Assembly (NCBI GenBank): GCA_030616165.1
Contig: JAUWXV010000131.1
Location: 1-10,058, forward strand
Direction: 5' to 3'
Length of the DNA: 10,058 nucleotides
Origin: a bacterium
GTDB lineage: Bacteria; SM23-31; JAUVVT01
Shown: positions 9,805 through 10,058 of the stretch, in pieces
Numbering within the stretch: position 1 is the first letter of the stretch
Layout of the letters: every line of letters begins with the position of its first letter
Notes under the pieces: model-generated
What the model saw: only the letters and a program-made list of their open reading frames with translations
What the model was told of the DNA's origin: nothing
The model's database searches: none
Translations under genes and position numbers: made by a program

Positions 9805-9899
9805 TCATTTTCCGCCAGAGGCGGAACCACTTTTGGTGGACGAGCGGAGCACTTAGGACGGAGCAAGTTATATAGCCGGTTTAAAACCGGTTTTTTTTT
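9805..9899 (+). ncRNA. Candidate small structured RNA or structured intergenic repeat
   Basis: Between the promoter candidate and a strong terminator lies about 95 bases that is clearly more GC-rich than its surroundings. TTCCGCC (9810-9816) pairs with GGCGGAA (9820-9826) around AGA. CCAC (9827-9830) can pair with GTGG (9836-9839). A purine-rich stretch follows with two related units, GGACGAGCGGAGC (9838-9850) and GGACGGAGC (9856-9864). No known RNA family is recognised. It could equally be a dispersed intergenic repeat or the structured 3' end of the murI transcript. Confidence 0.35.
9874..9899 (+). terminator. Rho-independent terminator
   Basis: CCGGTT (9876-9881) pairs with AACCGG (9885-9890), and the stem can extend by G9875-T9891 and A9874-T9892. 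Nine T residues (9891-9899) follow at once. The direction is + strand. It would end either the murI transcript, 186 bases after its stop, or the candidate small RNA. Confidence 0.8.
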
Positions 9900-9920
9900 G
9901 AGACAGATGTATGCAAAAGT

Positions 9921-9980
9921 GTTTCAGTTTGTCTAAATTTGTCTCAGTTTGTATCAATTAGTATCAATTTGTCTCATTTT
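9921..9980. repeat. Array of six 10-bp tandem repeats with a GTCTCA-type core
   Basis: Six consecutive 10-base units run without gaps: GTTTCAGTTT, GTCTAAATTT, GTCTCAGTTT, GTATCAATTA, GTATCAATTT and GTCTCATTTT. Positions 1, 2, 4, 6, 8 and 9 (G, T, T, A, T, T) are invariant. GAGAC, the reverse complement of the core, occurs before the array at 9900-9904 and after it at 9993-9997 and 10002-10006. Near-helical spacing would put every unit on about the same face of DNA, as expected for cooperative binding by a regulator, transposase or initiator. Confidence 0.75.
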
Positions 9981-10058
9981 TGGGGTGATTTTGAGACGGG
10001 GGAGACAATTAAGGTTTTAATTATCAGTTATTTAGATTATTTGTCTTACTTTTTTTAT

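Follow-up and report, generated by a model that had tools for sequence, protein, structure and literature searches.

Type 1 SaPIs encode their own terminase small subunit (TerS), which recognizes their own pac site and thereby diverts the packaging machinery of the helper (PMC6893505). In published TerS rings, approximately one B-DNA turn separates neighboring helix-turn-helix motifs, and DNA wrapping has been put forward as a model; the DNA-binding domain of the SF6 TerS displays little sequence specificity (PMC4737164). A recent structural paper calls the reading of DNA by TerS a subject of major debate (PMC11331095). The gene transfer agent (GTA) RcGTA packages random DNA, and no packaging site is known for GTAs (PMC6854486). 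Here we describe dispersed mobile repeats whose sole recognizable gene encodes a terminase small subunit. Our search of the open-access literature, whose silence is weak evidence, turned up neither dispersed orphan TerS-array elements nor a gene transfer agent from KSB1. The best overall reading of the locus, to which we assign a probability of about 0.6, is that it belongs to a family (F1) of mobile one-gene units in which the array is a pac-like TerS site.

The window (the whole stretch of DNA analyzed, 10,058 nucleotides) comprises an entire contig, C98, of a 3.74 Mb draft genome from a class that named relatives place with candidate division KSB1 and bacterium SM23_31. At 9921-9980 on the forward strand it contains six tandem 10-mers without gaps (GTTTCAGTTT GTCTAAATTT GTCTCAGTTT GTATCAATTA GTATCAATTT GTCTCATTTT; consensus GTMTCARTTT), in which positions 1, 2, 4, 6, 8 and 9 are invariant across all units. 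Their 10-bp periodicity yields the top score in the window (52 of 60), as against a maximum of 44 and a mean of 40.3 (SD 1.3) in 60 shuffled windows. Both flanks of the array carry an inverted GAGAC half-site on the minus strand: one at 9900-9904 forms the left edge of the element, where most other copies have GAGAA; a second at 9993-9997 lies 22 bp after the last unit, a distance conserved among F1 copies; and a third at 10002-10006 follows 9 bp further on. The gapless six-unit array and its bracketing by GAGAC in the opposite orientation, both of which an earlier note had read from this DNA, are thus borne out. The array is preceded by GCCGGTTTAAAACCGG with a T-run, and a terminator-like stem (CCGGTTTAAAACCGG plus T-run; 9877-9899, plus strand) directly adjoins the array end of the element on its left. 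Several other F1 copies have a comparable stem in front of them, while the copy on C329 has none and that at C233a has a different one, so that the placement of the array directly after a terminator holds here and in only some of the copies. The sequence of the left flank (9860-9897) also recurs without an array elsewhere in the genome (G000:C30:4623-4659), and is apparently a separate dispersed repeat.

The contig ends 52 bases past the last GAGAC, as is expected of an assembly interrupted at a repeat. Between these points the minus strand encodes KKSKTNNLNN followed by a stop codon (10024-10056), which matches the C-terminus of the full-length F1 TerS on contig C128 (L009:2158-2535) residue for residue. 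The remainder of this terS lies beyond the contig end, and the copy whose array end the window contains is probably one that bears the gene. This inverts the earlier view that the array starts a new unit to its right: it instead closes a minus-strand unit at its 3' end, with terS ahead of the array, and the contig breaks off within that unit. An operator of the gene beyond the window is likewise ruled out, as the terS to the right reads towards the array.

A search of the genome with the array recovers approximately 11 similar copies, and the F1 pattern is present with identical architecture at about 10 places in a genome from another genus of the same family (G001); it has no match in the four other members of the six class genomes, and a reversed-pattern control has zero matches in any class genome scanned. 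The copy counts vary with search thresholds, and the genomes are fragmentary draft assemblies. The dispersed copies, together with those of the second genus, rule out a local slippage repeat. A full copy spans about 0.6 kb in the order promoter, gene for a 125-residue protein, array; C128 and C329 bear such copies, with the gene on the strand opposite to the array. Aligned copies have a common left boundary (GAGAA in most), 4-8 array units spaced by 10 or 11 bp, then TTTGGGGTGATTTTGAGAC and, in most cases, a further GAGAC-like site after another 9 bp. Their right end, read on the other strand, resembles a promoter, with TTGACTTCCC followed by a TATAAT-like stretch. At least four other copies (C16, C293, C319 and C277) lack most of the gene and have one deletion junction in common, which means that a deleted form has multiplied. 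These comparisons identify the array as an end of a small mobile element present in dispersed copies. In both genera, short CACAGGGCAGGCAGAG-type repeats are frequently found within or beside the elements (L012, L015, L017, L104-L106, L184, L187, L190), as if the elements attract or accumulate a minisatellite. The second genus also contains a second F1 subfamily (C114, C258 and C139; L183, L185, L189) with a different right arm and the same promoter-like end sequence.

The F1 gene product matches the Pfam model HTH_Tnp_1_2 (PF13022) with 55.7 bits; this and a further score of 49.1 bits both exceed the curated cut-off of 27.9. Four PHROG terminase small subunit families also match the F1 protein (best E 4e-12), and its nearest solved structure is 2ao9, a phage protein of nine chains to which PMC11331095 refers as the small terminase pHBC6A51. 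The genome of the window has seven TerS-type genes, one of which, on contig C76, is an ordinary TerS with TerL and portal genes behind it. The other six are orphans, and no F1, F2 or F3 copy has an adjacent TerL. On these matches the proteins of the three families are orphan members of the terminase small subunit (phBC6A51/PF13022 type). There is weak support for selection on the orphan TerS genes (dN/dS 0.63, not significant; dN/dS 0.31, p 0.04), and the TerS tree is poorly resolved. A lone TerS in the second genus (G001:C68; L144:4929-5300), with neither a downstream TerL nor an array, was rejected as an F1 gene, as it groups with the TerS of the conserved cluster described below (support 91/89); it may be a remnant of that cluster. 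The orphan TerS has no match in the phage collection, alignment recovers only distant viral relatives, and a scan of named genomes with the TerS alignment was also negative. As it has no plasmid match and no other sign favors a plasmid-type iteron, that candidate was dropped. Exact-pattern scans of IMG/VR, likewise, gave no support for a phage origin: those for F2 and F3 had zero matches, and that for F1 matched only an unrelated GTGTCACTTT repeat. This repeat is present in triplicate on two viral contigs (L207:7495-7520 and L208:8597-8622), and is probably an operator-type array.

The orphan TerS genes fall into three families, each of which pairs its own TerS with its own downstream array. 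F1, the family of the window, has GTMTCA arrays; F2 (terS on C128 and C339; about 17 array copies) has alternating TTATCA/TGATAA half-sites; and F3 (terS on C173 and C192; about 16 array copies) has TTCCCA/TGGGAA half-sites. Each family has its array 3' of terS, dispersed gene-less copies and a retained promoter-like end. The three have a common end geometry of half-site, 19-22 bp, inverted half-site, 9 bp, half-site, so that the distance from the last unit to the inverted half-site seen in F1 has its counterpart in F2 and F3. The F3 family is the weakest case, with exact half-sites numbering only about 4 or 5. In the scan of the class genomes the F2 and F3 patterns are confined to the genome of the window. 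Many F2 copies (L069-L082) have conserved right arms of several hundred bases with no evident intact terS.

The occurrence of F1 at about 10 sites in the second genus with no neighbors in common argues that the element moves: no flanking genes are common to the F1 sites of both genera (flanks of about 1.5 kb in G001). The earlier suggestion of a multi-site transposon end survives in part, in that the array is a multi-site end of a mobile element; the full-length copies, however, contain no transposase gene, TerS being their only gene, and the mirrored array that was expected at the other end is absent, its place being taken by the promoter-like sequence. The one-gene element also has no integrase or replication genes, and neither REP palindrome pairs nor a RAYT (TnpA-REP) gene, having phased arrays and TerS instead. 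The main rival to the pac-like reading is a MITE-type transposon family, in which the array and the promoter end would be recognition ends for a transposase acting in trans, and the captured TerS an accessory end-binder or repressor with no part in packaging. It accounts for insertion at new loci, and is consistent with the common deletion junction of the gene-less copies, the different insertion sites in the two genera and the orientation of the array end, which points towards the 3' end of a co-oriented neighbor gene in 15 of 20 cases (manual count, p 0.04). However, no terminal inverted repeats were seen in the element, the flank words in common are short and inconsistent and yield no firm target-site duplication, and full copies encode no transposase. 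The retention of TerS with a matching array in three families is also left unaccounted for, and on balance we regard a MITE-type family as rather unlikely.

The geometry of the arrays supports the pac-like reading. The half-sites of F2 strictly alternate at 10, 11, 10 and 11 bp, a mean of 10.5 per step, so that in both F1 and F2 the spacing keeps helical phase, in agreement with the earlier proposal of binding along one face of the DNA. Binding of a protein to one DNA face predicts such a pattern, in which the phase is kept although the number of units and the single-base spacing vary, and the spacing of about one helical turn between the helix-turn-helix motifs of TerS rings fits the array. 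These observations suggest that the helix-turn-helix domains of an orphan TerS ring might bind the array units at approximately one per helical turn, and we consider it quite probable that the array (9921-9980), recognized by its periodicity and recurrence, is a pac-like site bound by such a ring. In favor of a structured non-coding RNA, with transcription running through the array, are the promoter-like end retained in all families and a conserved hairpin that the array strand could form. Nevertheless, among 15 copies from the two genera no predicted pair occurs in more than one Watson-Crick kind and there is no covariation, whereas unit number and the 10 or 11 bp spacing vary with the helical phase retained; an RNA as the conserved product thus seems hardly credible.

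Phased multi-site arrays would suit any cooperatively binding regulator, and the F1 arrays are intergenic. Domesticated orphan TerS proteins might therefore be DNA-binding regulators, with the dispersed arrays as operators or anchoring sites in chromosome organization. Most F1 arrays, however, lie downstream of the adjacent gene rather than at its promoter, their sites are not conserved across the two genera, and the parallel expansion of three families looks selfish, all of which render a regulatory role improbable. Dispersal in two genera, the TerS gene, the gene-less derivatives, the three TerS-array families and the TerS-TerL-portal cluster considered next are, in contrast to the functional readings, established at the level of sequence.

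The TerS gene on C76 belongs to a cluster in the order TerS, TerL, portal, present in a single copy in the genome of the window. Its TerL is found, also in single copy, in five of the six class genomes (48-53% identity to the C76 protein), and the gene order is the same across the class wherever the contig reaches the portal gene, the clusters being incomplete on short contigs. A single-copy major head protein is present in four of the six genomes. In two genera (G004 and G005) the same Nramp gene adjoins the cluster (61% identity), a common neighbor that suggests vertical descent of the kind seen in gene transfer agents. Across the class (L154 on G000:C76, L204 on G000:C238, L145-L148, L153 and L205), the cluster encodes, besides the major head protein, TerS, TerL and portal, a large protein that contains an ATP-dependent DNA ligase domain. 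These features make the conserved cluster a candidate for a gene transfer agent in KSB1-type bacteria. Inspection of the surroundings of the cluster TerS genes in five class genomes, and of those of viral TerS relatives, brought up no conspicuous phased array, which leaves putative the role of the array as a packaging site of that system.

The C-terminal part of TerS contacts TerL in other phages, and a C-terminal motif is common to the orphan and cluster TerS proteins. Under the pac-like reading, TerS bound to the array might recruit to the element the TerL packaging motor that the GTA-like cluster encodes, DNA carrying the element would be packaged preferentially, and gene-less copies, consisting of the site alone, would be served in trans. 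We offer this diversion of TerL tentatively, as somewhat less than an even prospect. Against the overall reading speak the low sequence specificity of the SF6 TerS domain, the weak support for selection on the orphan genes, and the second genus, which has F1 arrays and whose genome yielded no F1 TerS; that genome is 70% complete, and the missing F1 TerS and TerL may reflect this. Packaging by itself creates no new insertion loci, which lie outside the reach of the model; a packaging hijack and a MITE mobilized by an unknown transposase could both hold. Should the arrays instead serve the host, they would seed GTA-like packaging of adjacent host genes to its benefit, as might be supposed from tens of arrays across a 3.7-Mb genome and a cluster conserved in the class. 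Yet four class members keep the cluster with no arrays, the arrays differ between genera and none is near any cluster TerS, making a host-serving role very improbable. The full extension of the pac-like reading, a class of minimal selfish elements parasitizing a gene transfer agent by means of a lone TerS and a pac-like array, with three specificities and with gene-less arrays as second-order parasites, is a possibility that we hold with some doubt.

If packaging does occur, hardly any packaging hijacker described so far would be smaller than F1, which would also parasitize a gene transfer agent, and a GTA would gain the site-specific packaging that is said to be missing from GTAs. Even if it does not, tens of arrays with three specificities, each matched to its TerS, provide a test of how TerS rings read DNA.

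Among known systems, the type 1 SaPIs and PICIs compare with F1, which combines a TerS with a candidate site of its own. F1 differs in having no integrase, replication or capsid-redirecting gene, in its full length of only about 0.6 kb with many dispersed and mostly gene-less copies, and in its candidate helper, a GTA-like cluster in place of an active phage. The pac sites of SPP1-like phages similarly contain direct repeats at terS, around whose product, a TerS ring, about 100 bp of DNA have been proposed to wrap (PMC4737164), whereas the F1 array is 3' of terS, far more regular and found in many copies that lack the gene. RcGTA is comparable in that apparent vertical inheritance, a trait of GTAs, also marks the class-wide TerS-TerL-portal cluster, but the RcGTA TerS is devoid of the N-terminal domain for specific DNA binding that the orphan TerS proteins possess. 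REPIN-RAYT systems also consist of many short intergenic non-autonomous copies and a few full-length genes for the cognate DNA-binding protein (PMC3116915, PMC8266576); RAYT, however, is a transposase-type nuclease acting on palindromes, whereas the repeats here form phased arrays and TerS lacks a catalytic domain. As judged from gene content and repeats, the missing integrase, transposase gene and REP palindromes set the element apart from the PICI, IS and REPIN families, while in its possible mode of working it may resemble both PICIs and REPINs.
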